From NCBI GenBank assembly GCA_020161315.1, contig JAIUOH010000001.1, positions 101,620 to 144,665 of the forward strand: DNA of 43,046 bases, written 5' to 3'. Under the pieces are notes generated by a model. It saw only the letters and a program-made list of their open reading frames with translations. It made no database searches and was not told the DNA's origin. The DNA comes from Actinomycetota bacterium. GTDB lineage: Bacteria; Actinomycetota; Actinomycetes; Actinomycetales; Microbacteriaceae. This document shows positions 21,461-38,207 of the stretch, in pieces (the first letter of the stretch is position 1; every line of letters starts with the position of its first letter). Position numbers and translations under genes: made by a program.

Positions 21461-21525
21461 GCACCAAACAGCAGTAAAGGCATACGAAGTCCCGGAAATC
21501 GTGTGCCTTTACTGCTGTTTGGTGC
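21461..21525. repeat. Palindromic element, copy A
   Basis: 27-bp arms (21461-21487, 21499-21525) with one mismatch and an 11-nt centre. The core arm reads AACAGCAGTAAAGGCA. It is followed by GTGCTTTACGTGCTGGTCGG, also present after copy B at 38039-38101. The whole 21303-21846 gap holds this palindrome, a degenerate ~65-bp direct repeat, a ribH-tail relic and the promoter region of the next gene. Confidence 0.88.
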
Positions 21526-21540
21526 TTTACGTGCTGGTCG

Positions 21541-21640
21541 GCGGCCTACCTGCTGGGTCTGCTGGTCGATTGCCCGCGTGCTGGTCGTACTGGTCCTGCT
21601 GGCGGGCGGCCTACCTGCTGGCCGATCCTCCGCGTGCTGG
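21541..21640. repeat. Degenerate direct repeat of ~56-65 bp
   Basis: GCGGCCTACCTGCTGG occurs at 21541-21556 and 21606-21621, and CCGCGTGCTGG at 21574-21584 and 21630-21640. CTGGTC motifs fill the space between. This expansion explains why copy A carries about 101 bp more than copy B between palindrome and ribH tail. Confidence 0.6.
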
Positions 21641-21676
21641 CCGGTTCTCCGGCGAAGCGCCCAAGCGTCCGCGCGA

Positions 21677-21731
21677 GGCTAGGCGCGCGCCTCGCGAATC
21701 GCACGCAGCGTCACCGCAGCGTGCAGCGCGG
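21677..21731 (-). pseudogene. Relic of the ribH 3' end (left junction repeat)
   Basis: On the minus strand this reads ALHAAVTLRAIREARA and then TAG, which is the C-terminus of lumazine synthase. It matches 38153-38207, the end of the intact ribH, at 53 of 55 positions, with 47 identical in a row (21685-21731). Similarity stops abruptly at 21731. Both copies lie in the same orientation and in the same order after a palindrome. Confidence 0.85.
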
Positions 21732-21785
21732 AAGAGCATGTGCCGACCGAAGAAAACTTGCGACACCTCGATCCCTTTCTGCTAG

Positions 21786-21814
21786 CATTCATTAAACATT
21801 CATTTAAGAATGAA
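21786..21814 (+). promoter_or_regulatory. Direct and inverted CATTCATT sites before the LuxR-type gene
   Basis: CATTCATT occurs at 21786-21793 and 21797-21804, and its complement AATGAA at 21809-21814, in a short AT-rich stretch 33-61 bp before the start codon. This is a plausible operator or activator site. No sure promoter hexamers could be assigned. Confidence 0.4.
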
Positions 21815-21846
21815 CATACTGCTTTCATCCACGAGAGGGACCACGC

Positions 21847-22497
21847 ATGTCACAGCCGACAACGTCAAGCCCGGTCGCAGATCTGGGCGAATTTCGTCGC
21901 CGAATTCCGGTGCTCGTTCTTGAACAGCACGAGCTCACCCTGCTCGGCTTACGAGCTCTGCTGGGCTCGAGGCAGTGGGTTTCGCGTTGCTTTGCCGCCT
22001 CAGATCCCCAGGTCGCACTCGCGATCGCGCGGCGGCATCAGCCGGCCCTCATCCTGGTCAACCAGGCGTGCGGTTCGGGGGCCGGCATGCGGTTGGCCGC
22101 GAGTCTTCGGCGCATTGTGCCGTTCGCGAGAATCGTGCTGCTGAGTGCTTCGGGACGGCTCGACCGGCGAGCAGCGGAGGAGTACGGCATCGACGCCGCA
22201 CTGCTCACCACGGCGCCAGCAGCCTCGGTTGTCGAACTCTGCACGAGTCTGCTCGACGGCAAGCTTCCGAGCAACCACGGACTGGGGTGCAGCGACATCG
22301 GTTATGCGCTTTCACCGCGTGAGACAGAGGTGCTCGAAAAACTCTCTCAAGGGTTCACCAATCCTGAGATCGCAGGCATGCTGCACCTTGCGCACGACAC
22401 TGTGAAGCAGCACACGAGTGCGGTGTATCGAAAGCTTGGGGTGCGCAACCGCACGCAGGCGGCTAGCCTCGCGCGAGAGCACGGTCTGGTCGCGTGA
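21847..22497 (+). CDS. LuxR-type regulator with degenerate receiver domain
   Basis: 216 residues. The C-terminal ~60 are a NarL/LuxR helix-turn-helix (LSPRETEVLEKLSQGFTNPEIAGML ... VYRKLGVRNRTQAA). Residues ~20-130 have the fold pattern of a receiver, but the phospho-acceptor Asp is Asn72 (LILVNQ), the acidic pair after strand 1 reads EQHE, and the switch Lys is replaced (ALLTTA). It probably works without phosphorylation, perhaps through a ligand. AGAGGG lies 8 nt before ATG 21847. It is the first gene inside the acyl-CoA cluster and 101 bp ahead of a dehydrogenase operon, its likely target. Confidence 0.85.
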   Translation: MSQPTTSSPVADLGEFRRRIPVLVLEQHELTLLGLRALLGSRQWVSRCFAASDPQVALAIARRHQPALILVNQACGSGAGMRLAASLRRIVPFARIVLLSASGRLDRRAAEEYGIDAALLTTAPAASVVELCTSLLDGKLPSNHGLGCSDIGYALSPRETEVLEKLSQGFTNPEIAGMLHLAHDTVKQHTSAVYRKLGVRNRTQAASLAREHGLVA

Positions 22498-22598
22498 ACA
22501 GCGTGACATCCACATGCAGCACCGACTATGCGGTGGGAGCATACGTAAGTCCATAACGGCGGGCATCGCTGCCCGAACTCAATGAGGAGAACACAACG

Positions 22599-23759
22599 AT
22601 GAGATATCGGCTTTCCGCTGAAGATCAGAAGTTCCGCGACGAATGTCGGGAGTTCCTGCAGAACAATATTCCGCAGGAACTTCGCGATAGAGTGGCGTCG
22701 CACAAAGAGCTGGGCAGGGAAGACTTTGTCACCACACAGCGCATCCTGAACGCAAACGGTTTGGCGGTGCCCGGCTGGCCGGCTGAATGGGGTGGGCGTA
22801 ACTGGACATCGCTGCAGCACCACATCTGGCGAGAGGAACTCGCGGCCAACGACGTGCTCTCTCCGCTCGACTTCAACACCTCGATGTTCGGTCCCGTGCT
22901 TGCCGCCTTCGGCTCGCAGGAGCAGAAGGAGCGTTATCTCCCGGCGACTGCAAACCTCGACATCTGGTGGTCGCAGGGGTTCTCTGAGCCCGAGGCTGGC
23001 TCGGACCTCGCATCGTTGAAGACCACCGCGGTTCTCGACGGTGACCACTGGGTGGTGAACGGTTCGAAGATCTGGACGACCCTCGGCCAGTACGGCGATT
23101 GGATGTTCGCGCTTATTCGCACCGACCCGAATGCGCCAAAGCCTCAGGCAGGCATCAGCTTCATGATTATGGATATGACGACTCCCGGCATCACCGTGCG
23201 CCCCATTGAGTTGATCGATGGCAGCCACGAGGTGAACGAGGTGTTCTTCGATAACGTGCGTGTGCCCGTCGAAAACGTCATCGGTGAGGTGAATAAGGGC
23301 TGGACGTACGCAAAGTTCTTGCTCAGCAATGAGCGCGACGGCATCGGCGCGGTGGGATACAGCAAGCGCACCCTTGCGCGTGCGAAGGCAGAAGCCTCGA
23401 ACCTCGGTTTGCTGCAAGACCCCGAGATCTCACGTCGATTCGTCGAGCTGGAGAACGAACTGCTGGGAGTTGAACTCACCGCGCTTCGCGTTGCCGGTGG
23501 TGCCCGCGAGGGAGAGCCAGACCCAGTGTCATCGGTGCTCAAGCTGCGAGGCTCGCGTCTCAGCCAAGAGGTGACCGAGCTCATCGTCGATCTTTCGGGG
23601 CCCGGCGGCATCGCTTCGGGCGCCGGCGACGACAGCTCACTTCCGGAGTGGGTGCGAAGCGCTGTGCCGCACTACCTCAATGAGCGCAAGGTAACTATCT
23701 ACGGTGGATCCGACGAGATCCAGCGCACCATCATCTCACGCACGATCCTCGGAATGTAG
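22599..23759 (+). CDS. Acyl-CoA dehydrogenase, FadE-type subunit 1
   Basis: 386 residues, full-length acyl-CoA dehydrogenase fold: N-terminal helical domain, QGFSEPEAGSDLASLKT near 128-145 (FAD-side strand motif), and the C-terminal KVTIYGGSDEIQRTIISRTILGM. The usual catalytic Glu of the YEGT motif is Gly (YGGS), as in one subunit type of heteromeric actinobacterial dehydrogenases. GAGGAG precedes ATG 22599. The next gene, 13 bp on, is another dehydrogenase lacking the C-terminal motif, so the two likely form an alpha2-beta2 enzyme acting on a branched or cyclic acyl-CoA. Confidence 0.9.
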   Translation: MRYRLSAEDQKFRDECREFLQNNIPQELRDRVASHKELGREDFVTTQRILNANGLAVPGWPAEWGGRNWTSLQHHIWREELAANDVLSPLDFNTSMFGPVLAAFGSQEQKERYLPATANLDIWWSQGFSEPEAGSDLASLKTTAVLDGDHWVVNGSKIWTTLGQYGDWMFALIRTDPNAPKPQAGISFMIMDMTTPGITVRPIELIDGSHEVNEVFFDNVRVPVENVIGEVNKGWTYAKFLLSNERDGIGAVGYSKRTLARAKAEASNLGLLQDPEISRRFVELENELLGVELTALRVAGGAREGEPDPVSSVLKLRGSRLSQEVTELIVDLSGPGGIASGAGDDSSLPEWVRSAVPHYLNERKVTIYGGSDEIQRTIISRTILGM

Positions 23760-23772
23760 GAGCAGAACACAC

Positions 23773-24927
23773 ATGGATTTCACGCTGAACGAAGAGCAAG
23801 AAGCTCTCAGGGAGACGGTCGAGCAGCTGGTTTCGAAGCAGTATCGTACCACCGAGGATCGCCGCAGGGTCACTACGCAGACCCCAGGTTTCAACGAAGA
23901 GCTGTGGCAGCAGCTTGCCGAACTCGGCGCGTTCGGGCTGCCGTTCGCCGAAGAGATTGGCGGGGCAGGTGCGGGCCCTATCGAGGTCGGCATCGTGGCG
24001 GAGCAACTCGGTCGTGCGCTTGCGCCGGAACCGTTTGTTGAGACCGTCGTGCTTGCGGGCGGCCTCATCGCAGAACTTGGCACCGCCGAGCAGAAGGAAG
24101 GGCTGCTCGGCGGCATCATTGCCGGGGAGTTCCAAGTGGCGTTCGCGATGCACGCCCGCGGTAGCCGTTGGCAGGCCGCGGCGAGCGGCGTTGCCGCGCA
24201 GCAGATCGGAGGCGGCTGGTCGCTCAATGGGCTGAAGGAACCGGTGCGCGGGGGCGGGCAGGCGCAGACTCTGCTGGTCTCAGCGACTACTCCGTGGGGA
24301 TCCGGCGTCTTCCTGGTTGCTGCCGGTGCTGCCGGTATGGAGGCGCGGGACTATCGCACCCATGACGGAGGCCGAGCCGCCGGAGTAACGTTCGCGAACA
24401 CGAGCGCTGTGCTGCTGGGCGAGCCCGGCGTTGACGCCGCGCCCACGATCGCGCGGGTGTTCGATCGTGCTCGTCTCGCCTATGCGTTCGAGATGCTCGG
24501 TATTCTCGAGGTGGGCCTTGAAGACACCGTCGACTACCTGAAGACGCGCAAGCAGTTCGGTGTGCCGCTCAGCAGTTTTCAGGCATTGCAGCACCGTGCC
24601 GCCGAACTCTACGTGGCGCTGGAGGTGACTCGGAGCACGATTCTCTGGGCAGGCATGGTGCTCGAAGCCGAACTCGCGGGGGATGCTTCAGCCGACGGTG
24701 CTTCGGCGATCACTCACGCGTGCCTCCAGGCCAATCGTGCGGCGCGCCTCATTGGGCAGGATACGCTGCAGATGCACGGCGGGATCGGAATGACCGCCGA
24801 GTACAGTATCGGGCAGCGCCTCAGCCGCCTGACTGCGATCAAGCGCGCGATTGGAGATTCGAATGTGTTCAGGGAAAGGCTGCTGCTGCGTCTTGAAGAT
24901 TACGCGAGTGTGGATCCACTCGCATGA
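23773..24927 (+). CDS. Acyl-CoA dehydrogenase, FadE-type subunit 2
   Basis: About 384 residues, beginning MDFTLNEEQEALRETVEQLV at ATG 23773 with AGGAG ahead. The helical N-domain and the C-terminal QDTLQMHGGIGMTAEYSIGQRL are clear, but the usual final YEGTxEIQ segment is absent; the protein ends RLEDYASVDPLA. The middle domain is less conserved. It is expected to partner the preceding subunit. It ends with an ATGA overlap into the thioesterase gene, so the three are one operon. Confidence 0.9.
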   Translation: MDFTLNEEQEALRETVEQLVSKQYRTTEDRRRVTTQTPGFNEELWQQLAELGAFGLPFAEEIGGAGAGPIEVGIVAEQLGRALAPEPFVETVVLAGGLIAELGTAEQKEGLLGGIIAGEFQVAFAMHARGSRWQAAASGVAAQQIGGGWSLNGLKEPVRGGGQAQTLLVSATTPWGSGVFLVAAGAAGMEARDYRTHDGGRAAGVTFANTSAVLLGEPGVDAAPTIARVFDRARLAYAFEMLGILEVGLEDTVDYLKTRKQFGVPLSSFQALQHRAAELYVALEVTRSTILWAGMVLEAELAGDASADGASAITHACLQANRAARLIGQDTLQMHGGIGMTAEYSIGQRLSRLTAIKRAIGDSNVFRERLLLRLEDYASVDPLA

Positions 24928-25751
24928 GTAACCCGAGATCGCTCACCGAGTTGCTCTCCCTCGAGCGGCTCGGGGGCGAGGATCGGTTTCGACAGGGATC
25001 GTTGCCGAACACCGAGGGCCGAAGTTATGGTGGGCAACTGCTCGCCCAATCGGTCGTCGCTGCGCAGCAGACGAGCGACTCCGATCGCGCTGTGCACTCC
25101 CTACACGGCTACTTTCTGAGCCCTGGAAACCTCGAACGACCGCTCGAGTACAGAGTAGAGCGGTTGCGCGATGGCAGGTCGTTCTCATCGCGCAGAGTCG
25201 ATGCCTGGCAAGGCGATCGTCTCGTGTTCACGGCCACCGTTTCGTTTCATGTGCCGGAGCATGGCGTCGAACATCAGATTGATTTGCCCGCTGGGATTCC
25301 TGGTCCTGAGGAGCTCGCTGACCATAGCCCGTTTGCGGAGCCCGGCGATGGGCCGCCGAACTTTGAAAACATGATGGAGGCTCGCGAAGTACCCCCGGAG
25401 CTGTGGCCAGGCGATGATTCATTCCACGCAGCAGCCTGGCTGCGCATCCGAGAACCCCTTCGCGACGACCCGAGGCTGCACCAGGCTGCAGTCGCGTACT
25501 TGAGCGACGCGGTGCTGCAGTTTCCGGTGCTCTATTCGAACGGAGTCAGTTGGTCGACGCCTGATGCGGTGCTTGCGAGTCTCGATCACGGGCTCTGGTG
25601 GCACGGCGCCTGTCGCGCCGATGACTGGCTGCTGGTGACTCACCGGTCGCCGAATTCGCGCGGCGGCCGGGGTATTTCGATGGGATGTATCTACGATCGT
25701 GCGGGCAGAATGGTCGCGAGCAACGTGCAAGAGATGCTGCTTCGTCTCTGA
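24924..25751 (+). CDS. tesB: Acyl-CoA thioesterase II (TesB family)
   Basis: 275 residues of double hotdog fold. The N-terminal half has YGGQLLAQSVVAA near 34-46 and HSLHGYFLSPGN near 58. The C-terminal half ends with ASLDHGLWWHGACRADDWLLV, carrying the conserved Asp and the typical TesB C-terminal block. It hydrolyses acyl-CoA to free acid and CoA, perhaps to release dead-end thioesters and recycle CoA. It overlaps the previous gene by 4 nt and is the last gene of the dehydrogenase operon. Confidence 0.9.
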   Translation: MSNPRSLTELLSLERLGGEDRFRQGSLPNTEGRSYGGQLLAQSVVAAQQTSDSDRAVHSLHGYFLSPGNLERPLEYRVERLRDGRSFSSRRVDAWQGDRLVFTATVSFHVPEHGVEHQIDLPAGIPGPEELADHSPFAEPGDGPPNFENMMEAREVPPELWPGDDSFHAAAWLRIREPLRDDPRLHQAAVAYLSDAVLQFPVLYSNGVSWSTPDAVLASLDHGLWWHGACRADDWLLVTHRSPNSRGGRGISMGCIYDRAGRMVASNVQEMLLRL

Positions 25752-25761
25752 GGCGGCACTC

Positions 25762-25789
25762 GCACCGCCAACCGGTCGGCCGGTGGTGC
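25762..25789. terminator. Possible terminator hairpin between convergent genes
   Basis: GCACCGCC pairs with GGTGGTGC imperfectly, with an inner CCGG-TCGG-CCGG hairpin. It lies in the 41-bp gap between tesB (plus) and the TetR gene (minus). Confidence 0.35.
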
Positions 25790-25792
25790 CCG

Positions 25793-26458
25793 TTATGGTC
25801 TCCCGGGAGCGCTCGGCATCTCTGTCGAGCCGGGCAGTGTCGAGTGCGCTTCTGCCGCGCCGACGAGCCGTAGCGTTGACTCGACGAAAAGCTCAGCGAG
25901 TTCTGTCGGGTCGAGTTGTCCCTCTGGTTTGTACCAGAGCACGACGTACTCGATGCTCGTCAGGATGATCGACGCAACGACTGACGAATTCGACATGACG
26001 AAGGATCCCTCGTCGGTGCCTTGCTGAAGAATTTCCTTGAGGAGCGAGCGGTGCAGTTGCTGCCACTTGCTGACAGCTGTCAGCGCGTCGGGGCCGAGGC
26101 TGTTCTGCAGTGACATGTAGCCGAAGTTGATCTGCTCCTCGCTCTCCTCGACCTGGGAGCTGACGAATGTGCGAACAAAAGCCTTGAGTCTCTGAACGCC
26201 CGTCTTGCCCGAAGCATCGGCTGCGGCGAGGCGTTCGTAGCTTGTGCGATAGATCTCTTCTAAGGCGGAGGCGAGCAGATCCTTCTTCGATGGAAAATAC
26301 CAGTACAGGTTGCCCGGAGTCATGCCTGCTTCGTCCGCGATGCGAGTAACGGGGGTGCCGTCGTAACCATCGCGCTGAAACAGCATCATGGCGACTCGCA
26401 GGATCTCGACCTCTCGTGCTCTCGTGCTCGGATCCTGAGTCTTCTCGCGTGAGGGCAT
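25793..26458 (-). CDS. TetR-family regulator 1
   Basis: About 221 residues. The N-terminal HTH is typical (ILRVAMMLFQRDGYDGTPVTRIADEAGMTPGNLYWYFPSKKDLL), with a GNLYWYF recognition segment. The ligand domain is generic (resembling TetR_C regulators of fatty acid genes). ATG 26458 is chosen over the in-frame TTG 26464. It faces the thiolase gene across a 218-bp divergent gap and probably controls it; the gap shows no clear operator, though TACCCG ... CGGGGGTA at 26493-26526 is a weak dyad. Confidence 0.87.
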   Translation of the reverse strand: MPSREKTQDPSTRAREVEILRVAMMLFQRDGYDGTPVTRIADEAGMTPGNLYWYFPSKKDLLASALEEIYRTSYERLAAADASGKTGVQRLKAFVRTFVSSQVEESEEQINFGYMSLQNSLGPDALTAVSKWQQLHRSLLKEILQQGTDEGSFVMSNSSVVASIILTSIEYVVLWYKPEGQLDPTELAELFVESTLRLVGAAEAHSTLPGSTEMPSAPGRP

Positions 26459-26676
26459 AGGCAAAGTATAGGTCCGCCCCCACTGCGGCCCCGTACCCGG
26501 TTTTCAGCCTCACCCGAACGGGGGTATTGGACGGCCCGAGGCACGAGAGCCCTCGCGCGATAGAGCAAGCTGAAGTGAGCCCATGTGCTTGGGTCAAACG
26601 CGAACAGCGAAGCGGCTGGTTGCTCGGCTGCCTCGACGAATCGTTCGGTTCAACTTCGTTTTCAGAAAGAGATGCC

Positions 26677-27891
26677 ATGCCCGAAGCAGTGATCGTTTCT
26701 ACCGCCCGCTCGCCGATCGGCCGAGCATACAAGGGGGCTTTGCGTGAGATGCGCCCCGACGACCTCGCGGCAGCGATGGTGAGAGCCTCGCTCGACAGGG
26801 TGCCAGAGCTGAATTCCTCCGACATCGACGACCTGATGCTCGGCATTGGTTATCCGGCCGGTACAGGAGGCAACAACGTGGCTCGTGTGACTGCGGTGCT
26901 GAGCGGTTTGCCCACGGTGCCCGGTGTGACGGTGAGCCGCTTCTGTTCGTCGAGCCTGCAGACGACGCGCATGGCGTTCCATGCGATCAAGGTAGGCGAG
27001 GGCAATGCGTACCTCTCCGTCGGTGTCGAGAGCTGCTCATCCTACGGTCCCGATTTCGCAGACACCCCCGCAACGTTCAACCCGAAATTCGCGGAGGCGG
27101 TGGCACGTTCTGCTCGTCGTGCTGAAAACGGGGAAGCCTGGAGCGACCCCGAAGAGCAGGGTCTGCTGCCCGATGTCTACATCGATATGGGGCAGACTGC
27201 TGAGAACGTCGCTCAGACGCTCGGCATCAGTCGCGAAGAGCAAGACGCCTTCGCAGTGCGCAGCCAGAATCGGGCTGAGGCCGCGATCGCCGATGGCTTT
27301 TGGGCGAGCGATATCACCCCGCTCACGCTTCCCGACGGTACTGTGCTCGACCGCGATGAGAGCCCCAGGGCCGGTGCCACGGTCGAGAGTGCTGCGGCGC
27401 TGCAGCCGGTGTTCCGCGCGAATGGCACGGTGACGGCTGGTAACGCGTGCCCGCTGAGCGATGGCGCAGCAAGCCTTGTCATCATGTCGGATCGCAAGGC
27501 GAAAGAACTCGGGCTCACCCCGCTCGCGCGAATCGTTTCGACCGGTGTCTCTGCGCTCTCGCCGGAGTTCATGGGGCTCGGCCCGGTCGAAGCGTCAAAA
27601 CGTGCGCTTGCGAATGCCGGCCTGACCACTGCCGACATCGACCTCTTCGAAATCAACGAGGCGTTCGCCGCGCAGGCGATTCCCTCTGCCCGACAGCTCG
27701 ATATCGACGAGGACCGTATGAACATCTTTGGCGGTGCGATCGCTGTCGGCCACCCCTTCGGCATGACGGGCGCGCGAATCACGGGCACGCTGATCAATGC
27801 CCTGCAGCGCACCGACGGCCAATTTGGTCTCGAAACCATGTGCGTCGCGGGAGGCCAGGGAATGGCGCTGATCATCGAGCGGCTGAGTTGA
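26677..27891 (+). CDS. Thiolase (acetyl-CoA C-acyltransferase)
   Basis: 404 residues from ATG 26677 (AGAAAGAG ahead). The catalytic set is complete: nucleophile Cys90 in VSRFCSSSLQ, NEAFAAQA near 327, GGAIAVGHPFGMTGAR near 346 (catalytic His), and CVAGGQGMA (second Cys) near the end. It cleaves 3-oxoacyl-CoA with CoA, the last step of a beta-oxidation round. It is monocistronic and ends at a strong shared terminator. Confidence 0.93.
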   Translation: MPEAVIVSTARSPIGRAYKGALREMRPDDLAAAMVRASLDRVPELNSSDIDDLMLGIGYPAGTGGNNVARVTAVLSGLPTVPGVTVSRFCSSSLQTTRMAFHAIKVGEGNAYLSVGVESCSSYGPDFADTPATFNPKFAEAVARSARRAENGEAWSDPEEQGLLPDVYIDMGQTAENVAQTLGISREEQDAFAVRSQNRAEAAIADGFWASDITPLTLPDGTVLDRDESPRAGATVESAAALQPVFRANGTVTAGNACPLSDGAASLVIMSDRKAKELGLTPLARIVSTGVSALSPEFMGLGPVEASKRALANAGLTTADIDLFEINEAFAAQAIPSARQLDIDEDRMNIFGGAIAVGHPFGMTGARITGTLINALQRTDGQFGLETMCVAGGQGMALIIERLS

Positions 27892-27914
27892 TCAGGTAGC
27901 TCAACTTTCGCTAA

Positions 27915-27967
27915 CGGCACACAGGCTTGAGGCCCGGAGACGATCCGGGCCTCAAGCCTGTGTGCCG
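27915..27967. terminator. Perfect 24-bp terminator stem between convergent operons
   Basis: Arms 27915-27938 and 27944-27967 are fully complementary, beginning CGGCACACAGGCTTGAGG, with loop GACGA. It ends the thiolase gene and, on the other strand, the MBL-DUF35-aldolase operon. Confidence 0.8.
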
Positions 27968-27980
27968 CACAGAGCGTTGA

Positions 27981-29135
27981 CTAGGCCTCCGCAGCGTCGG
28001 GGGTGCCGAGCACGAGCGTGGCCGCCGACATGAAGCTGCCGCCGTTGCCCAGCACGACGGAGACATCGACACCGTCCACCTGCGCAGCGGCTTCGCCGCG
28101 CAGCTGACGCACCGACTCCTGAATCGCAAACATGCCGTACATGCCGGTGTGCGTGTAAGAGAGCCCGCCTCCGTTGGTATTGACTGGTAGTGAGCCGCCT
28201 GGTGCGGTGTTGCCGTCGGCGATGAACGAACCTGCCTCACCGCGACCCACGAAGCCCATGTCCTCCAGCCCGTAGATCGGCAAGTGGGCGAACGCATCGT
28301 AGATCATCACGTGATCGACGTCGGAATGGGTGATGCCGGCAGCGCGAAACGCCTGAGCGCTCGACTGCCTGAAGCCGCGCGAACTCGTGGCATCTGGCAT
28401 CTGCGAGATGAGCGGGGAGTCGACACCAGCGCCGGTACCGAGCACGTGCACCGGAGTGTGCTTCAGGTCGAGATCTTTCGCCCGCTCCGCCGAAGTGAGA
28501 ATGAGCGCGCCCCCGCCGTCGGTGACGAGGCAGCATTCGAATAGGTGCAGTGGGTAGTTGATCATGCGAGACGAGAGCACGTCGTCGACCGTGATCGGGT
28601 CCTTCATATAGGCGCGCGGGTTCATCGATGCCCACTGTCGCTGCACAACGGGCACAGTCGCCAACTGTTCTGGCGTGAGGCCGGTCTCTTTCATGTAACG
28701 CAGCAGGGGGATGGGGAACGACTGCACGTTATCGATCACGCCGTAGGGCAGCTCGAACTGGGCGAGTGCCGAGTACGGGTCGTAACTCCACTCGGGTTGG
28801 CCGGTGAACGACCGACCAGACTCGCCGTGCGTGATCAGCACTGTGGTGCAGTGGCCCGCGGCGATCGCGGCCGCAGCATGGCGCACCATGTAGAGGAAGC
28901 TCGTGCCGCCGATCGAGGTCGAGTCAACCCATGACGGATTGATACCGAGGGCGTCGGCGACTTCGAGCGGCCCGCCCGGCACCGCCACGGCGGCGATGCC
29001 ATCGATATCGTCTTTGGTCAGCCCTGCGTCGGCTAGCGCGTTGCGCGCCGCCTCGAGGTGCAGCATCATGTTCGAGTATTCAGGCAGCTTGCCCAGACGA
29101 TCGGTCTCAGCCGCGCCGATAATGACCGCGCTCAT
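27981..29135 (-). CDS. Thiolase-like protein of the Ltp2 (retro-aldolase) type
   Basis: 384 residues of thiolase fold, but the nucleophile Cys position is Gly (TSIGGTSF near 73-80), so it is not a true thiolase. It has features of Ltp2-type aldolases that act with a DUF35 partner in steroid side-chain breakdown: YDAFAHLPIYGLEDMGFVGRGE near 275-295 and NGGGLSYTHTGMYG near 325. The gene overlaps the upstream DUF35 gene (ATGA), the same pairing as Ltp2 with the DUF35 partner. The inferred role is retro-aldol cleavage of a 3-hydroxyacyl-CoA with a tertiary alcohol; the substrate is unknown. Confidence 0.85.
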   Translation of the reverse strand: MSAVIIGAAETDRLGKLPEYSNMMLHLEAARNALADAGLTKDDIDGIAAVAVPGGPLEVADALGINPSWVDSTSIGGTSFLYMVRHAAAAIAAGHCTTVLITHGESGRSFTGQPEWSYDPYSALAQFELPYGVIDNVQSFPIPLLRYMKETGLTPEQLATVPVVQRQWASMNPRAYMKDPITVDDVLSSRMINYPLHLFECCLVTDGGGALILTSAERAKDLDLKHTPVHVLGTGAGVDSPLISQMPDATSSRGFRQSSAQAFRAAGITHSDVDHVMIYDAFAHLPIYGLEDMGFVGRGEAGSFIADGNTAPGGSLPVNTNGGGLSYTHTGMYGMFAIQESVRQLRGEAAAQVDGVDVSVVLGNGGSFMSAATLVLGTPDAAEA

Positions 29136-29566
29136 GCTGCAGCCTCCTCGAACTGCGCTGCGGCCGGGGCGAACACCGGCACGGTGTGGTCGCCACGATT
29201 CTCGAAACGTACCTCGAGCGGCATGTCGAGGATCAGGTGTTCAGGTGTCTGTTCGATGTCGACGATGTTCGTGAGCATTCTTGGCCCCTCTTCTAGAGTG
29301 ACGATGGCGATTGAATAGGGTGCCTCGTAGCCGTAAACCGAGCGCATCGAGATGCTGTACGAATACAGCGTGGCGCGGCCCGAGGCGGTGAACCAGTCGG
29401 TGTTCTCGCTTCCGCAGTGGGGGCAGAGCGGACGGGGGTAGAAGTACGCTCTGTCGCAGTCGTCGCATCGCTGAATGCGCAGTTCTCCGCGCGCTGCGCC
29501 ATCCCAGAACTCCTGGGTCTCGGGGGTGGGTTTCGGAACCCACTTCGTTGTGTAGTCGTAGGACAT
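29132..29566 (-). CDS. DUF35 protein (zinc ribbon plus OB fold), aldolase partner
   Basis: 144 residues: an N-terminal helix (TPETQEFWDGAARGELRIQ), a rubredoxin-like zinc ribbon with CDDC (residues ~34-37) and CPHC (~48-51), then an OB-fold domain (GRATLYSYSISMR ... GPRMLTNIVDI). DUF35 proteins bind acyl-CoA and form complexes with thiolase-like enzymes. Its overlap with the thiolase-like gene supports an obligate pair. It is 56 bp after the MBL gene, in one operon. Confidence 0.9.
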   Translation of the reverse strand: MSYDYTTKWVPKPTPETQEFWDGAARGELRIQRCDDCDRAYFYPRPLCPHCGSENTDWFTASGRATLYSYSISMRSVYGYEAPYSIAIVTLEEGPRMLTNIVDIEQTPEHLILDMPLEVRFENRGDHTVPVFAPAAAQFEEAAA

Positions 29567-30489: not shown

Positions 30490-30503
30490 CACCAATCCCT
30501 TTC

Positions 30504-30551
30504 TAGAATGTAATTCTAAAATAACTATCATGACGATATCGATTCGGTCAA
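30504..30551 (-). promoter_or_regulatory. Promoter and TetR-type operator of the MBL operon
   Basis: On the minus strand: -35 TTGACC (30546-30551), 16-bp spacer, -10 GATAGT (30524-30529), then the 15-bp palindrome TAGAAT-TAC-ATTCTA (30504-30518), just before the ribosome site. The same palindrome occurs in the same place after the MFS promoter at 31330-31387, so binding would block early transcription in both directions. Confidence 0.75.
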
Positions 30552-30623
30552 GCGGGTCGGCAGCTCGAGCGCGATGCGAGCGTCGGATCTGCTTAGATGG
30601 TGTTTCAAGCGAGGGGTGAAAAC

Positions 30624-31232
30624 ATGTCCGACCCAGCAGAGAAGCCGACGCGCCGCTGGCGTTCGACTGAGGCGACCCGGCAGGCGGTCCTCAACGCTGC
30701 CATCGAGGTGTTCGATAGGGACGGGTATTCCGAGGCGAGGATCGGCGAGATCGTCGAGCGATCCTCGGCGAGCGTCGGCAGTATCTACCATCACTTCGGG
30801 GGGAAAGCCGAGATCTTTGAGGTGCTCTGGGAGCGCTATAACGATGCGATGTGGCAGGCGGTGCGCGATGCCGTTTCGTCGGCTCGTGAGGCCGGAGAAA
30901 CCGACCCTATGGAAAACGCTCTCGTCGGCGCCCGGGCGTACCTGTCTTCTCTTACTGACCCCGAACACGCGAAGTTGGCTCGCATCATGGCTACCGGTGA
31001 TGCACCTCCGGAACTCTCGGAGCGCATGCAGAAAGAGCAGCGCAAATGGGTGCAGGGCAACGTGCATGCTCTGGGGTTCGGCCGCGGAGTTGACGCCCAG
31101 CTGCGCGCCTCGGTAGTGGTGGCGATGCTGGGTGAGGCCGAGATGACTTATGCGCGAGACCCTCGCGAGGGGTTGCTCGAGGAGCTCACCGCATCGATTG
31201 ACGACATGTTGCGGCGGTTGCTCACCAGGTAA
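30624..31232 (+). CDS. TetR-family regulator 2, likely controller of both flanking operons
   Basis: About 202 residues from ATG 30624 (GCGAGGGG ahead; an in-frame ATG at 30597 has no such site). The HTH is AVLNAAIEVFDRDGYSEARIGEIVERSSASVGSIYHHFGGKAEIFEVLW, with VGSIYHHF as recognition helix. It lies between two operons whose promoters share the operator TAGAATNTAATTCTA, making it the natural candidate repressor. The inducer is probably an acyl-CoA or free acid of the pathway; this is an inference. Confidence 0.9.
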   Translation: MSDPAEKPTRRWRSTEATRQAVLNAAIEVFDRDGYSEARIGEIVERSSASVGSIYHHFGGKAEIFEVLWERYNDAMWQAVRDAVSSAREAGETDPMENALVGARAYLSSLTDPEHAKLARIMATGDAPPELSERMQKEQRKWVQGNVHALGFGRGVDAQLRASVVVAMLGEAEMTYARDPREGLLEELTASIDDMLRRLLTR

Positions 31233-31329
31233 AAGTATGGCGCTGGCCGGCACCACTCGCGCATCCCCCAAACGGGCGAGCTGAGATCCAAGCGTTGCCT
31301 TGTGAAGGTGCCGTGACTCCCACGAGGTC

Positions 31330-31387: not shown

Positions 31388-31452
31388 AAAACGGGACAAT
31401 GAAGTCATCGCGGCAGAGTGGCCGCCGAAAACTGAAAGGGGATAGTGAACAA

Positions 31453-32877
31453 ATGAGTGTTCAAGCTGCCGCCGAATCCGAGCGATCGACTGCGTGGCTC
31501 GTTGCGCGCATGGACCGCCTCCCGGTTCTGGGCACCCACATCGTTTGGGTAGTCCTCCTCACCGCCAACCTGACTATCGACTACTACGACAACGCGCTCT
31601 TCGCCTACGTGCTGCCGCAGATCATGGCAGACACCGGCATGGATCTCGCGCAGGTCGGTGTGATCAGCAGCGCATTCTTCGTGGGTATGATCTTCGGCGC
31701 GATTATCGGCGGACGGCTGGCAGACCGCTACGGCCGCCGCACAGTGATGGTGTTCGCCACTGCCGTCTACTCGATCGGTGCAATTGTCACCGCCATGGGC
31801 AGCGACTTCACCACGATGTTTCTCGCGCGGCTGTTCACCGGTATCGGCGTGCAGGCGGCGACCTCGGTGCTGCTGGTCTACATCGCCGAGATGTTCCCCG
31901 GCAAGATCCGCGGTCGCGTGGTTGCAATCGTGACCGCTGCCTTCGCTGTGGTCGCCCCTCTCGTCGGCTACCTGGCCATGGTGACGATCCCGAACGGTGG
32001 GCCTGGAACGTGGAGGATGCTCTTCTCTTGGGGTGGCTTCGGTCTCGTGCTGATTCCGTTCGTGCTGATGCTCATGCCCGAATCGGTTCGGTGGCAGGCT
32101 TCGCGAGGCAAGATCGATCAGGCATTCGCCCTGCTCGAGAAGCTCGAGGCTCGCGCGGTAGCGTCGGGCAAGCAGCTGGTCGAGGCGAAGCCGATGGCGG
32201 AGTCCAAGGTGCGCGAGTTGAGCCTGCGCGAGATTTTCCGCTCCCCGAGAATCATCCGCACGATCGTCGTGATCTCGCTCGCCTACTTCGGAACCACGCT
32301 CGGGCTCTACATGGTCTCGAACTATCAGATCTACGTGCTTATCGACGCACTGGGCTTTGACGAGACCAAGTCCTACTCTTGGGCTACTCTGTGGGGTGTC
32401 ATCGCGATCGCAGCACCCTTCCTCGCGCTGCTGGTGATGGATCGCTTCGAGCGCAGAACGCTGATCTTCATCACCTCTGTGCTCTCGGCCGTGCCGCTGA
32501 TCTTCTTCGGCATCTCGACCAGCGACTGGGTGATCTTCGTCGCCGGAGCCTTCTGGGGTGTCTTCGCTTCAGTTGTTGTTTCAGCGTTCTACGCATACAT
32601 TCCCGAGTCGATGCCCACCGAGGCTCGCGGCCTGGGTAGCGGCATCATGATCAGCGTCGGCCGCTCGGGTGGCGTTGTCGCCGGTGTGCTCGGCGCGGCG
32701 CTTTACTCGGGCGGCGGTCGAGCAACGCTGATGATCGTCTCAGCGATCGCGTATGTGCTCTTCACCGTCGTACTGCTCTTCCTCGGGCCGAGGACCACGG
32801 GCCGATCGCTCGAGAGCGTTGCCGCTGAGGAGATCGGGCTCAAGACCGAGGTCAACCAGGTCGTCGTTCCCGAGTGA
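31453..32877 (+). CDS. MFS transporter, metabolite:H+ symporter type
   Basis: About 474 residues with 12 predicted helices. The loop 2-3 motif GGRLADRYGRRTVMV is canonical, and the DY pair in the first helix (NLTIDYYDNALF) resembles aromatic acid/sugar acid importers. ATG 31453 is preferred; GAAAGGGG lies ~12 nt upstream and the upstream in-frame ATG (31399) falls right after the operator. It is first in the operon with SDR, dehydrogenase, ligase and hydratase, so it likely imports the carboxylic acid substrate. Confidence 0.9.
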   Translation: MSVQAAAESERSTAWLVARMDRLPVLGTHIVWVVLLTANLTIDYYDNALFAYVLPQIMADTGMDLAQVGVISSAFFVGMIFGAIIGGRLADRYGRRTVMVFATAVYSIGAIVTAMGSDFTTMFLARLFTGIGVQAATSVLLVYIAEMFPGKIRGRVVAIVTAAFAVVAPLVGYLAMVTIPNGGPGTWRMLFSWGGFGLVLIPFVLMLMPESVRWQASRGKIDQAFALLEKLEARAVASGKQLVEAKPMAESKVRELSLREIFRSPRIIRTIVVISLAYFGTTLGLYMVSNYQIYVLIDALGFDETKSYSWATLWGVIAIAAPFLALLVMDRFERRTLIFITSVLSAVPLIFFGISTSDWVIFVAGAFWGVFASVVVSAFYAYIPESMPTEARGLGSGIMISVGRSGGVVAGVLGAALYSGGGRATLMIVSAIAYVLFTVVLLFLGPRTTGRSLESVAAEEIGLKTEVNQVVVPE

Positions 32878-32927
32878 ACACACGCTTCACTCAACGCAAA
32901 CACCACATCACCTGAGAGGGAACCTTC

Positions 32928-33689
32928 ATGACAACGCTGAACGGAAAGGTCGCGGTCGTTACCGGCGCGGCGCGCGGAATCGGTGCCGGGATCGCGAGGC
33001 GACTTGCCTCTGACGGAGCACGAGTCGTAGTGGTCGACCTGAGCGAGGATGCAGCCGCAGAGACCGCAGCCGAGATCGTCGCCGCTGGCGGCGAGGCAAA
33101 AGGGTTCGGCAGTGACGTCTCGGACGAGGCATCCGTTACCGCCACTGTGGAGCGCATCGTCGCGGAGTGGGGCGGCATCGACATCCTGGTCAACAACGCA
33201 GGCATCATCAAAGACAATCTGCTGTTCAAGATGACAGTCGCAGACTGGGACGCCGTAATGGGCGTACACCTGCGCGGCAGCTTTCTCTGGGCGCGTGCCG
33301 CGCAGGCGAGCATGGTTGCGAAGAAGTGGGGGCGCATCGTCAACCTGTCGAGCACCTCTGCATACGGATCTCGCGGCCAGGCGAACTACTCCGCCGCGAA
33401 AGCAGGCATCCAGGGCTTTACGAAGACGCTCGCCATCGAGCTCGGCCCTTTCGGTATTAACGTGAACGCGATTGCGCCCGGCTTCATTGCCACTGACATG
33501 ACCCGCGCTTCAGCCGAACGCATGGGCATGGAGTGGGATGACTATGTGACGCAATACCTCCCCGAGATTCCGGTGCGTCGAGTCGGTGAGCCGGCCGACA
33601 TCGCGAATGTCGTCTCGTTTCTGGTCGGCGAGGATTCCTCGTACGTCAGCGGCCAGATCATCGACGTCGCAGGCGGCCCAGCCCACTGA
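32928..33689 (+). CDS. SDR-family 3-oxoacyl reductase/3-hydroxyacyl-CoA dehydrogenase (FabG-like)
   Basis: 253 residues. Cofactor motif TGAARGIGAGIA near 12-23, NNAG near 89, catalytic Ser in NLSSTSAYGS near 140, and YSAAK (Tyr, Lys) near 155-159 are all present; Asp in VVDLSED suggests NAD+ use. In a breakdown operon it most likely oxidises a 3-hydroxyacyl-CoA. GAGAGGGA precedes the ATG; it starts 50 bp after the MFS gene. Confidence 0.92.
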   Translation: MTTLNGKVAVVTGAARGIGAGIARRLASDGARVVVVDLSEDAAAETAAEIVAAGGEAKGFGSDVSDEASVTATVERIVAEWGGIDILVNNAGIIKDNLLFKMTVADWDAVMGVHLRGSFLWARAAQASMVAKKWGRIVNLSSTSAYGSRGQANYSAAKAGIQGFTKTLAIELGPFGINVNAIAPGFIATDMTRASAERMGMEWDDYVTQYLPEIPVRRVGEPADIANVVSFLVGEDSSYVSGQIIDVAGGPAH

Positions 33690-33783
33690 TGAAGCCGTGC
33701 GGCGCTGCCCCGCGCGTACGTACGCCCACCCACTCGCCTCCTGAACAACCGAACGAATCGGAAAGACCCGAAGGAACAGAACC

Positions 33784-34965
33784 ATGCTCGACTTTTCTCT
33801 CAGCGACGAACAGCGAATGATCCGCGATGCGGTTCGCGCATTCATTCAAAAAGAGATCTACCCGCTTGAAATGCAGGTGCTGCGCAACGAGCGCGAGGGT
33901 CGACCCGCACTTGAGCCGGGTCAGCTGCGAGAGCTGCAGAACAAGGCGAAGGAACAGGGATTCTGGGGCGTCACCACCCCCGAGGAGTTCGGTGGCGCAG
34001 ATCTCGGTGCGGTCACCAACTCGCTCATCACCATGGAGGTAAACCGGAGCTTCGTGCCATTCAGTTTCGGCGGCTGGGCCGACAACATTCTCTTCGCGGC
34101 CAATGCTCAGCAGCGCGACGAGTATCTCATCCCTGTGATCAACGGCGAACGCATCTCTTCGTTCGCGATCACCGAGCCCGGTGCGGGTTCGGATGCGACG
34201 CAGATCCGCACCCGCGCGGTACGCGACGGCGATGACTGGATCATCAACGGCGAGAAGACCTTCATCACTTCGGGCCACGAGGCAGATTTCGTGATGCTGT
34301 TCGCTGTGACCGACCCTGAGAAGGGCGTCAATGGAGGGGTGACCTGTTTTCTCGTGGATCGCGCGATGGGGTACACCTCACACCTCATTCAGACCATGGG
34401 TGCGCCCGGTCCTGCTTGGCCCGCATCATTAGTGTTCGAGGACGTGCGGGTGCCGCATGCCAACATTCTCGGCGAGGAGGGCAAGGGCTTCGAGCTGGCG
34501 ATGTCGTGGATTGGTGATGGCCGCTATGTGATTCCTTCGGGCGCCATCGGTGCGTCGGAACGCCTGCTCGAGATGGCCATCGAGCACTCGAAGAACCGCA
34601 TCTCGATGGGTAATCCCATTTCGGAATATCAGGCTATCCAGTGGCAGATCGCCGACTCGCACGTCGAGATCGAGCAGCTGAAATGGCTTACCCTGTTTGC
34701 CGCTTGGCAGGTCGAGAACGGACAGGATGCCCGGCACTCGGCGGCGATAGCAAAGCTCAGCGGCGCTGTCACGGCGAACAAAGTGGTAGACCGCGTGCTG
34801 CAGATTCACGGTGGCATGGGCTATACCAAGGAGCTGCCGATCGAGCGCTGGTACCGTGAGCTGCGCCTGGCGCGCATCTACGAGGGCACAGACGAGATTC
34901 AGCGCCGCACTATCGCGCGTAACCTGCTCAAGGGTCACGCAAAGCTCGGCGAGATCGGAGGCTGA
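33784..34965 (+). CDS. Acyl-CoA dehydrogenase 3
   Basis: 393 residues with complete motifs: FAITEPGAGSDATQIRTRA near 120-140, RVPHANILGEEGKGF near 220, QIHGGMGYTKELPIERWYRE near 338, and the catalytic ARIYEGTDEIQRRTIARNLLKG at the end with the usual Glu, unlike the pair at 22599-24927. It is likely a homotetrameric FAD enzyme making the 2,3-double bond. AAGGA precedes the ATG. It is 2 bp from the ligase gene. Confidence 0.93.
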   Translation: MLDFSLSDEQRMIRDAVRAFIQKEIYPLEMQVLRNEREGRPALEPGQLRELQNKAKEQGFWGVTTPEEFGGADLGAVTNSLITMEVNRSFVPFSFGGWADNILFAANAQQRDEYLIPVINGERISSFAITEPGAGSDATQIRTRAVRDGDDWIINGEKTFITSGHEADFVMLFAVTDPEKGVNGGVTCFLVDRAMGYTSHLIQTMGAPGPAWPASLVFEDVRVPHANILGEEGKGFELAMSWIGDGRYVIPSGAIGASERLLEMAIEHSKNRISMGNPISEYQAIQWQIADSHVEIEQLKWLTLFAAWQVENGQDARHSAAIAKLSGAVTANKVVDRVLQIHGGMGYTKELPIERWYRELRLARIYEGTDEIQRRTIARNLLKGHAKLGEIGG

Positions 34966-34967
34966 AC

Positions 34968-37133
34968 ATGTCGAATCATGCAGTAGAAACAGCTGAGCGC
35001 CGCGTTCGCATGCCGATCAGTCCGGAGCGCATGCACGCGCTCTTCAATCCGCGATCCATTGCTCTGATCGGAGCTACCGAACGGTCGGGTTGGTCGTGGG
35101 CAACCTTTGCGAATCTCACCCCGGATCGCTTTTCAGGCGAGGTGCACCTGGTCAACCCCAAAGGCGGCATCGTGCACGGGCAGCAGTCGCTTTCGAGCGT
35201 TGAGGAGCTGCCCGAGAACGTCGATCTCGCGTATGTGATGGTCGGTCCCGCGGCAGTGGTCGACGTGATGAAGCAGGTCGCGGCCAAAGGGATCAAGTCT
35301 GCGGTGCTGCTGACTTCGGGCTTTAGCGAGGCAGGGCCAGAGGGAGCCGCGCTTGAACTCGAAGTGCTTGACATCGCTCTTCAACACGACATCACGATTC
35401 TCGGGCCGAATGGCAACGGATTCGCGAACTTCGCCGGGCATGTGACTCCGTACGGCCTCAGCATCCCGAGGGTTCCGCTGATCGGGGGTATCGGCGTGGT
35501 GCTGCAGAGTGGCGGGCTCGCCTCGACGGTGATGGATCTGGCCCTCGCCCGCAATGTCGGCGTCAGCATGCTGACCGCGATGGGCAACGAGCTCACCACC
35601 ACCCTCACCGACGTGGTGCGATACATGGTGCACGACGACGCGACCAAGGTGATCGCGATGTTCGTAGAGAGTATTCGAGACCCCGAAGCGTTCCGCGTCG
35701 TCGCTCGAGAGGCGCTCGAGGCGGGTAAACCGCTCGTCGCCATGAAAGTGGGTCGCAGCGCCGCCGGTGCGCGCGTCGCGAACGCCCACACCGGTGCGCT
35801 CGTGGGCGACGACAGCGTGATCGATGCGGTGTTCTCGCAGCTCGGCGTGGTTCGAGTCGACTCGCTCGAGGACTTGGTCTCGGCTGCTGAGATCTTTGCC
35901 AGCGGTGCCCAATTCAAGGGCAATCGCTTCGGTGTTGTTTCATCGTCGGGCGGTGCGAACGAGATCATCGCCGACTGTGCAGAGCCGGTGGGTCTGGTCT
36001 TTCCTGATTTCAACCCCGAGACGGAGCAGGCGCTGCGCGAGTTCTTGCCAGCCTTCGCGAACCCGCGCAATCCGGTCGACCTCACGGGCTTCGTGGTAGT
36101 GCAGGAAGATCTGCCCGAGCGCGCTGCCGAGGTGGTCGCGCAAGATCCGAACATCGACGGGGTGATCTACTGGACCGATCTTCCTCGTGAGCGGCCCGCC
36201 GACCCGGCCACTCACGAGGCCAACGTCGACTATTACCGCAGGCAGGTGCAGGCCTTCGCCAAGGCCGAGACCCCCGTGGTGCCCGTAGGCACCGCCTTCA
36301 CCGACATCACCCCCTACGGTGCCGAGGTGTCAGTCGCAAGCGGGTATCCGAGCGGCCTCGGGGGCATTCATCACGGCATCGCGGCTCTCGGTAAGGCCGT
36401 GCAGTGGCAGCTGCAGCGTGAGGACCGCCTGAAGGCACTGCAGGATGACCGCGCGGTGCAGCCACTCGATATCGATGCGGCACCGGGCAGCACCTTCGGC
36501 GAGCACCGCGCAGCCGAGCTGTTGCGCTCAGAGGGTGTGCCGATGGTGCCCGCGACGCTGGCCGCTTCCCCCGAGGAGGCAGCTGCGGCTGCCGAGAGCT
36601 TCGGATTTCCGGTCGTGGTAAAGCTAGCCGCCGATGAGGTGGAGCACAAAAGCGATATCGGCGGTGTCGCGTTGCACCTGAACAGCGGTGACGAAGTGCG
36701 GGCGGCATTCTCAGCCGTCACCGCTGCCGGTGCTCGCGCAGGTGTGGTCGACCCGAAGGCGCTCGTACAGCCGATGCGCTCCGGCGGCGTTGAGCTGATC
36801 GTCGGCGTGGTGCAGGACCCGGATTGGGGTCCGGTAATGGCCGTCGGTCTCGGCGGTATCTGGGTCGAGGTCTTCAAAGACTCCGTGCTGCATCCACTGC
36901 CCGTGAGCCGAGAGCGTGTGCGTGAAGGGCTCACCGAGCTGCGGGCGGCCGCGCTGCTGGACGGGGTGCGCGGAGCAGAACCCGCGGATCTCGATGCGAT
37001 CACCGACGCCGCAATGTCGGCCGCAGCTGTCGCGGAGCGGCTGGGGAATCGTCTCGAGTCTCTCGAGATCAACCCGCTGCTCGTGCGCGGCGGTTCCGTA
37101 GAAGCGCTGGACGCGCTCATCACCTGGAGGTAA
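34968..37133 (+). CDS. ADP-forming acyl-CoA synthetase (acetate-CoA ligase family)
   Basis: 721 residues. Domain order: CoA-binding Rossmann domain (~25-140, ALIGATERSGW and GPNGNGF), succinyl-CoA ligase-like domain with the phospho-His in ANAHTGALVGDD near 270, and a C-terminal ATP-grasp domain (~500-721) with FPVVVKLAADEVEHKSDIGG. It makes an acyl-CoA from free acid, ATP and CoA with ADP release. Placed between a dehydrogenase and a hydratase with 2-bp gaps, it is the probable entry step for the imported acid. GPNGNGF deviates from the commoner GPNCLG, which may reflect another substrate. Confidence 0.92.
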   Translation: MSNHAVETAERRVRMPISPERMHALFNPRSIALIGATERSGWSWATFANLTPDRFSGEVHLVNPKGGIVHGQQSLSSVEELPENVDLAYVMVGPAAVVDVMKQVAAKGIKSAVLLTSGFSEAGPEGAALELEVLDIALQHDITILGPNGNGFANFAGHVTPYGLSIPRVPLIGGIGVVLQSGGLASTVMDLALARNVGVSMLTAMGNELTTTLTDVVRYMVHDDATKVIAMFVESIRDPEAFRVVAREALEAGKPLVAMKVGRSAAGARVANAHTGALVGDDSVIDAVFSQLGVVRVDSLEDLVSAAEIFASGAQFKGNRFGVVSSSGGANEIIADCAEPVGLVFPDFNPETEQALREFLPAFANPRNPVDLTGFVVVQEDLPERAAEVVAQDPNIDGVIYWTDLPRERPADPATHEANVDYYRRQVQAFAKAETPVVPVGTAFTDITPYGAEVSVASGYPSGLGGIHHGIAALGKAVQWQLQREDRLKALQDDRAVQPLDIDAAPGSTFGEHRAAELLRSEGVPMVPATLAASPEEAAAAAESFGFPVVVKLAADEVEHKSDIGGVALHLNSGDEVRAAFSAVTAAGARAGVVDPKALVQPMRSGGVELIVGVVQDPDWGPVMAVGLGGIWVEVFKDSVLHPLPVSRERVREGLTELRAAALLDGVRGAEPADLDAITDAAMSAAAVAERLGNRLESLEINPLLVRGGSVEALDALITWR

Positions 37134-37135
37134 TC

Positions 37136-37990
37136 ATGGCGCTGAACCTTGAATCCGTCGGTTCGTCGACGGCTCCCCAGCTGGTGAGTTGGGATTCGAG
37201 AGACGTCATGCTCTACGCGCTCGGAGTGGGTGCAGGGCAAGCCGATCCTGCGCGGGAGCTTTCCTTCACTACCGAGAACAGTGAGGGCCACACCCAGCGC
37301 GTGCTGCCGAGTTACGGTGCGATCATCACCGACTTCCTGGCCACGGAGTGGGTCGATGTTGGCGAGTTCAACGAAGAGATGCTGGTGCACGCCGAGCAGC
37401 GCCTCGAGGTATTCGGCGAGCTGCCCGTCGCGGGGCAGGCCGAGGTTGTCACTACGGTCGACGGCATCTACGACAAGGGCTCCGGTGCGCTGGTGGTGAC
37501 CACCGCGATCGCTCGCGACCCGCATACGGGTGCCGAAATGGTGCGCTCGACTGCTTCGCAGTTCATCAGGGGAGAAGGCGGCTTCGGCGTCACGGGGCCG
37601 AAAGCCAGCTGGGAGCGGCCCGAACGCGACCCAGACTGCCGCATCACAGTCGGGGTGCGCGAAGATCAGGCACTGATCTACAGGCTCTCCGGCGACCGCA
37701 ACCCCCTGCATTCCGACCCCGCGTATGCGGCATTGGCGGGCTTTCCGCGGCCTATTCTGCACGGAATGTGCAGCTATGGGATCACCGCACGTTTGCTGCT
37801 GAACGCCTACTGCGACGGCGATCCCGGCCGGTTTCGCTCGCTCGACGCGCGCTTCAGTGCCCCGGTGTATCCGGGAGATGAGCTCACCGTAGAGGTCTGG
37901 GCGCTCGGCGACGGCGAGCTCAGGTTCGTGGTGCGGCGGGGCGGCGGCGAGGTTGTGCTCGACCGAGGCCGGTTCGGCTTCACTGGCTGA
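37136..37990 (+). CDS. MaoC-type 2-enoyl-CoA hydratase (double hotdog)
   Basis: 284 residues. The first hotdog begins with WDSRDVMLYALGVGAG, as in type 2 hydratases. The second has the hydratase motif YRLSGDRNPLHSDPAYAALAGFPRPILHGMCSYG near 180-215, containing the catalytic Asp and His. It hydrates 2-enoyl-CoA to 3-hydroxyacyl-CoA. It starts 2 bp after the ligase gene (GGAGG ahead) and is last in the operon; the palindrome B that follows may terminate it. Confidence 0.92.
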   Translation: MALNLESVGSSTAPQLVSWDSRDVMLYALGVGAGQADPARELSFTTENSEGHTQRVLPSYGAIITDFLATEWVDVGEFNEEMLVHAEQRLEVFGELPVAGQAEVVTTVDGIYDKGSGALVVTTAIARDPHTGAEMVRSTASQFIRGEGGFGVTGPKASWERPERDPDCRITVGVREDQALIYRLSGDRNPLHSDPAYAALAGFPRPILHGMCSYGITARLLLNAYCDGDPGRFRSLDARFSAPVYPGDELTVEVWALGDGELRFVVRRGGGEVVLDRGRFGFTG

Positions 37991-38038
37991 TCCTGCGCGG
38001 CCCTAGAGTAGCTGCGTCGGCCGGGCGTCCGCGCGAAT

Positions 38039-38101
38039 CACCAGACAGCAGTAAGGGCACACGAAATTCAGGAAACCGTGTGCCCTTACTGCTGTTTTGT
38101 G
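38039..38101. repeat. Palindromic element, copy B
   Basis: 25-bp arms (38039-38063, 38077-38101); the inner 18 bp CAGCAGTAAGGGCACACG pair perfectly. Compared with copy A (21461-21525), an A-T pair in the stem has become G-C on both sides, so base pairing is kept. It lies between the convergent hydratase and ribH genes and likely serves as terminator for both. Confidence 0.88.
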
Positions 38102-38152
38102 CTTTACGTGCTGGTCGGCTCTCCAGTGAGAGCCCGCGCTGTCGCCGGCGTG

Positions 38153-38207
38153 GGCTACCCGCGCGCCTCGCGAATCGCACGCAGCGTCACCGCAGCGTGC
38201 AGCGCGG
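38153..38207 (-). repeat. Right junction repeat: 3' end of ribH
   Basis: 55 bp overlapping the last 16 codons and stop of ribH, repeated directly at 21677-21731 (53/55). Duplication of a gene's 3' end is the classic mark of site-specific integration, but no integrase gene was found between the copies. Confidence 0.75.

Follow-up and report, generated by a model that had tools for sequence, protein, structure and literature searches.

Lineage-specific insertion of a foreign acyl-CoA catabolic cluster at the 3' end of ribH in a member of the Microbacteriaceae

Introduction

How does a set of catabolic genes come to lie between two copies of the end of a vitamin B2 gene? The question is raised by a stretch of 43,046 nucleotides (hereafter the window) from an actinomycete of the Microbacteriaceae (GenBank assembly GCA_020161315.1, contig JAIUOH010000001.1, positions 101,620 to 144,665 of the forward strand), in which a cluster of acyl-CoA catabolic genes is bounded on both sides by the 3' end of ribH (Table 1). 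A preliminary description had read this arrangement as the integration of an island. We compared the two junctions with each other and the locus with its relatives, and weighed the ways in which the cluster may have arrived.

Table 1. Features of the ribH locus and of the inserted cluster (positions in the window)
Feature	Position	Strand	Basis or remark
ABC transporter gene, ancestral left neighbour of ribH/CPBP	18234..20264	-	Pfam ABC_membrane + ABC_tran
CPBP protease gene, left flank of insertion	20274..21302	-	Pfam Rce1-like
Left hairpin	21461..21525	.	arms 21461-21492/21494-21525, 32 nt, 91% complementary; covariance model 92.6 bits
Left 21-nt flank	21522..21542	.	exact match to right flank
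Left spacer with internal repeats	21543..21676	.	sequence comparison
Left tail, ribH 3'-end relic with stop codon	21677..21731	-	53/55 identity to 38153-38207
LuxR-type regulator	21847..22497	+	Pfam GerE
Acyl-CoA dehydrogenase, nearest pimC (below cut-off)	22599..23759	+	profile match
Acyl-CoA dehydrogenase, nearest pimD (below cut-off)	23704..24927	+	profile match
TesB-type thioesterase	24924..25751	+	Pfam; tesB below cut-off
TetR regulator	25793..26464	-	profile match
Acetyl-CoA acyltransferase	26527..27891	+	NF005890 above cut-off; match from residue 51, true start probably internal
Thiolase, lipid-transfer-protein type	27981..29135	-	profile match
ChsH2-type zinc-ribbon/OB-fold protein	29132..29566	-	profile match
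Metallo-beta-lactamase-fold hydrolase	29623..30531	-	profile match
TetR regulator	30597..31232	+	profile match
MFS transporter, top model (below cut-off) aromatic acid/H+ symport	31399..32877	+	profile match
SDR dehydrogenase (FabG-like)	32928..33689	+	profile match
Acyl-CoA dehydrogenase	33784..34965	+	profile match
Acyl-CoA ligase, NDP-forming type	34968..37133	+	profile match
MaoC/MFE-2-type hydratase	37136..37990	+	profile match
Right hairpin	38036..38104	.	arms 38036-38063/38077-38104, 28 nt, 89% complementary; covariance model 95.9 bits
Right 21-nt flank	38099..38119	.	exact match to left flank
Right spacer, short	38120..38152	.	sequence
Right tail, repeat part of intact ribH 3' end	38153..38207	-	runs into intact ribH
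ribH, lumazine synthase, intact	38155..38652	-	Pfam DMRL_synthase

Both edges of the cluster carry the end of ribH

The 3' end of ribH is present at both edges, in the same order and orientation with a hairpin, a 21-nt flank and a diverged spacer. The preliminary description had proposed this repeated order, and the coordinates of both junctions bear it out, as does the exact 48-bp core of the tails (21684-21731 = 38160-38207). Its count for the tails also stands: an ungapped comparison gives 53 identical positions of 55, and the left tail stays in the ribH frame to the stop, reading SALHAAVTLRAIREARA before the stop codon where the right tail reads AALHAAVTLRAIREARG. Among exact direct repeats within the window, the 48-bp and 21-bp matches rank first and second in length, the controls (Markov-1, n=10) reaching 14-17 bp. 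Beyond the exact core, divergence begins at the last codon of ribH. The left joint is abrupt and lies within the ribH tail, with 6 of 20 bases matching beyond it, and the right side is continuous with ribH. When the genome itself was searched by BLAST with each unit (E up to 0.001), no third ribH tail appeared among the candidates scored (best 40 of 90 and best 40 of 46), and the junction unit found one weak additional hairpin among the best candidates scored.

The spacers do differ in length by about 100 bp, as had been noticed, but the left one, which is the longer, is filled with internal CCAGCA-type and CCTGCTGG-type repeats, and the two are too hard to align for differences to be counted. 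A 12-mer, GCGTCCGCGCGA, occurs beside the left tail (21665-21676) and beside the right hairpin (38025-38036), outside the main repeat register; that length was reached in 3 of 5,000 draws of random 47-bp segments (draws near repeats were skipped but counted) for a 12-mer chosen post hoc. Hairpin and flank together are identical at 72 of 82 ungapped positions. The tails are not significantly less diverged than the hairpins (2/55 vs 9/82, p = 0.20; 10/82 in the ungapped recount), and there is therefore no support for a separate evolution of the tail under coding constraint.

The hairpins belong to a dispersed family

Palindromes do stand at both junctions, as first described, but the hairpin is better seen as one of a family. 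A covariance model built from five copies matched seven places in this genome (G000), six in the relative G007 and, weakly, four other genomes; of the 13 places in these two genomes, 5 belong to the model set, and some weaker matches, e.g. C69 of G007, may be different hairpins. With a threshold of E 0.01 and filters under which weak matches are lost, 48 of 54 genomes of the genus show no copy. Judged by its flanks, one copy lies at an equivalent place in G000 and G007 (C62 and C90). The hairpin is thus repeated at scattered sites in this lineage and in a single sister species, its stem interiors variable but paired, and the seven places in this genome and six in G007 rule out that it is a part of the island. 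One stem pair has changed on both sides between the window copies (21478/21508 A-T vs 38055/38085 G-C), slight evidence that pairing may be maintained. The hairpin is no simple intrinsic terminator either: a consensus scan gave no stem followed by a T run at either copy. Among viral contigs we found one match to a single arm and none with both arms.

Between ribH and CPBP in G058 (L160, ~12342-12482), inspection by eye revealed an inverted repeat of another kind, with T-rich sequence after it. In the window, the sole Rfam match over 21000-43046 is an FMN riboswitch (41841-41998, minus strand), which lies upstream of the rib genes.

Relatives keep the locus without the cluster

The main check put forward in the preliminary description was that relatives without the cluster should place CPBP beside ribH. 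This is what we found in two genomes. G007 has ribBA-ribH-CPBP-ABC on one 9.2-kb contig with the cluster absent, the CPBP match starting 213 bp beyond the ribH match (168 bp beyond the stop codon if ribH is read as 176 aa), and G058 has ribH, CPBP and ABC adjacent, again with no cluster. In G061, a single contig carries DNA matches to ABC and to ribH-ribBA, separated by about 155 bp. We sought ribH in 40 genomes and found it in 36; of the 27 loci compared for gene order, 23 hold ribH. Of these 23, 20 have the ABC gene downstream of ribH and on the same strand; it is not seen in the covered stretch of the other three (that of L049 is only ~0.5 kb). The gap between ribH and ABC is below 600 bp in 15 of the 20 loci and holds other cargo in five: CPBP in G007 and G058, PrpF genes in G008 and G017, and GH114/MFS/TetR genes in G014. 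The loci with cargo other than CPBP are L037, L042 and L048. Proteins of the cluster occur at the ribH locus in 0 of 20 loci (E 1e-8, over half of the protein length).

In the loci compared, the strong second tail goes with the cluster. Among the top three matches per locus, a strong second tail occurs in 1 of 24 loci, the window itself (96% over 53 bp, E 2e-16), and the best match elsewhere is in L046 (75% over 64 bp, E 1e-7). The ribH tails of relatives are 66-84% identical to that of the window among the matches listed, and the protein end IREAR- of the window's ribH is found in 0 of 23 other loci. A shared lineage-specific deletion of the ribH end was considered and weakened on recheck, because a GPT-LVP-type extension is present in only 8 of the 23 other loci, the remaining ones, including G058, being without it; what is unique is the exact IREAR- end only. 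The two tails, at 53/55 far closer to each other than to the tails of relatives and with an end absent from the other 23 loci, have thus parted recently, inside this lineage. The suggestion that one copy came with the incoming DNA is thus possible, with a restriction: an incoming tail would have to stem from a very close relative, and distant actinobacteria, with genes like those of the cluster, are unlikely to have supplied it.

The cluster is probably of distant actinobacterial origin

The insert is about 16 kb long, with the cluster genes at 21847-37990. Two of the three acyl-CoA dehydrogenases come closest to subunits of pimeloyl-CoA dehydrogenase, though below cut-off. The gene content agrees with the CoA-dependent breakdown of an aromatic or alicyclic acid, to judge from profile matches; the ORF at 30528-31358 was rejected as a gene, having no profile match and a TetR gene on the opposite strand. 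The genus-wide protein search took in the thiolase and the CoA ligase only, at E 1e-60. Each has homologues in 3 of 53 other genomes of the genus, at 39-45% for the thiolase and 33-34% for the ligase, and the best named relatives of the thiolase are in Actinomadura, Nonomuraea and Microbispora at ~70% (best 80 of 212 loci). Among these best 80 of 212 loci and three loci of the genus, Arthrobacter hankyongi (L114) has nine distinct places matching cluster proteins, and Ornithinimicrobium murale (L133) has ten query matches, three of them on one dehydrogenase gene, which leaves eight distinct places. Neither is the donor, the gene order being unlike the cluster in both. The cluster is not on a known plasmid either, no record covering 80% of either half, and a plasmid search with the left junction gave no match.

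In tetranucleotide composition, half A of the cluster compares with the flanks at 0.67-0.71 and half B at 0.78-0.86, the flanks among themselves giving 0.84-0.90. Host-like as half B is, it is not native to the genus, since its CoA ligase has homologues of only 33-34% there. The deviation of half A, in an assembly of 74 contigs with 5.29% contamination, would also suit a cluster misjoined at the repeats. We regard such an artefact as highly improbable: the lineage's own ribH tail or hairpin stands at both cluster ends on a single contig, and half B matches the flanks. The cluster is, by protein similarity, foreign actinobacterial DNA for acyl-CoA catabolism, two of its proteins having tested as foreign to the genus.

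Taken with the cluster-free relatives that have ribH-CPBP-ABC and the strong second tail found only in the window, these rare and distant homologues establish that in this lineage the cluster is an insertion at the ribH 3' end, where the rib operon, CPBP and ABC ancestrally stood in succession. This lineage-specific insertion at a vitamin B2 gene, with a second copy of the tail, is real.

How the cluster may have been inserted

Island integration, as the preliminary description had it, holds in that there is an insertion and that the two cluster proteins tested are foreign; integration by an integrase is a possibility, with the repeat extending past the gene into spacer and hairpin. Genomic islands frequently, though not universally, carry mobility genes. 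This insert is in one lineage only, relatives keep the flank order intact without it, and an exact 48-bp direct repeat flanks it. Genomic islands often have flanking repeats of 16-20 bp (PMC2704930). As anticipated, no integrase was found: a six-frame search of the window gave no tyrosine or serine recombinase (PF00589, PF00239), and Pfam on the main ORFs of the insert gave no integrase, mobility or transfer genes. No ICE or IME genes were seen in the insert, which has no integrase of its own as ICEs and IMEs do. With neither integration nor transfer genes in its main ORFs by Pfam, it resembles a CIME, a cis-mobilizable element whose cargo lies between two repeats of a gene's 3' end (PMC5704250). 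Unlike in that account, the repeat here passes the gene into spacer and hairpin; the att sites are putative, as is any descent from an ICE or IME.

The main rival to our preferred reading starts from this likeness: an island with the ribH 3' end as its att core would have integrated and restored the end of ribH, its integrase since lost or acting in trans. In its favour, both edges carry the same exact 48 bp of a gene end and the gene is whole again, elements with attL and attR but no integrase are known as CIMEs (PMC5704250), and the 12 tyrosine-recombinase and two resolvase-family matches that the genome has outside the window are candidates for action in trans. The duplication nevertheless runs past an att core into spacer and hairpin, and the window holds no recombinase that we could find. 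Nor did a scan of main ORFs show an integrase family, either from ribH to ABC in three relatives or behind ribH in a fourth. An exact 22-mer of the core is absent from the viral contigs searched, and matches to the core in phages (eight records) are weak, of 27-42 bases, and all in unrelated genes. We consider this integration possible but on the unlikely side. That ribH 3' end, spacer and hairpin form a real attachment site for metabolic islands without integrases, moved in trans by a recombinase of the genome with ribH restored, is a more doubtful proposition; a full-text literature search for riboflavin genes as attachment sites and ribH as an integration site found nothing in the text that it covered. 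The Dehalococcoides ssrA islands (PMC3146451) are alike in that they are catabolic, adjoin the 3' end of a gene present once and have that end again at their far edge; unlike here, where none was found in the window, 16 of them carry an integration module with a serine recombinase, and their repeat is 20 bp.

The reading that we prefer, at about an even chance, is that the foreign cluster was inserted by homologous recombination with cluster-bearing DNA of a close relative. The donor would already have had the cluster next to a ribH tail, spacer and hairpin of its own; no genome turned up in which the cluster stands beside just one ribH tail, and the donor is therefore hypothetical. A circle could have integrated by a single crossover within the ribH tail; alternatively, ribH homology could have anchored a linear fragment that was then joined illegitimately within the recipient's ribH tail. 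On the right, either route would leave ribH intact, followed by spacer and hairpin, and on the left, beside CPBP, a truncated ribH tail, spacer and hairpin. Homologous recombination is favoured because the repeat continues through spacer and hairpin and because the locus has exchanged DNA with kin. Over the 623 bp of the ribBA tract at 38772-39394 there are 7 mismatches to G007, against 60 in 495 for the neighbouring ribH, and the tract is likely to reflect a homologous exchange between this lineage and that of G007, 0.6 kb from the insertion. It is an event separate from the insertion, because it stops short of ribH. Against homologous recombination, a 48-bp exact core that ends at a stop codon also looks like an att core or the product of an integrase.

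The second route has a described counterpart in homology-facilitated illegitimate recombination (PMC3240628). This process was invoked for Vibrio T6SS loci, where relic 3' ends are left, and is termed rare in PMC5361080. There, as this route would have it here, one end is homologous and the other is joined inside the recipient gene, with the 3' piece displaced; the Vibrio cases are repeated events involving effector 3' ends and immunity genes, whereas here the single relic is that of a housekeeping gene and the 16 kb of cargo are unrelated to it.

A donor for the tail becomes unnecessary if captured foreign DNA served to mend a break behind ribH and the tail, with its spacer and hairpin, was copied twice through template switching. 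The tails are indeed much closer to each other than to any relative, and tail and hairpin do not differ significantly in divergence. Such local duplication is hard to reconcile with spacers that differ strongly and by about 100 bp in length, yet flank 48 exact bases of a left tail that is no longer genic, and we think it quite improbable. The tail may thus have come from DNA of a close relative, from an att site matched to this species or from local copying.

Implications

As a genomic island that has no integrase of its own, the insertion is clear-cut but fairly ordinary, and of a kind that is known. It offers a well-bounded case of a foreign catabolic pathway placed behind a core gene that was left intact, with junctions readable to the base and sister species whose sites lack the cluster. 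The locus thereby makes it testable how islands without integrases move: through homologous exchange among kin or through integrases acting in trans.
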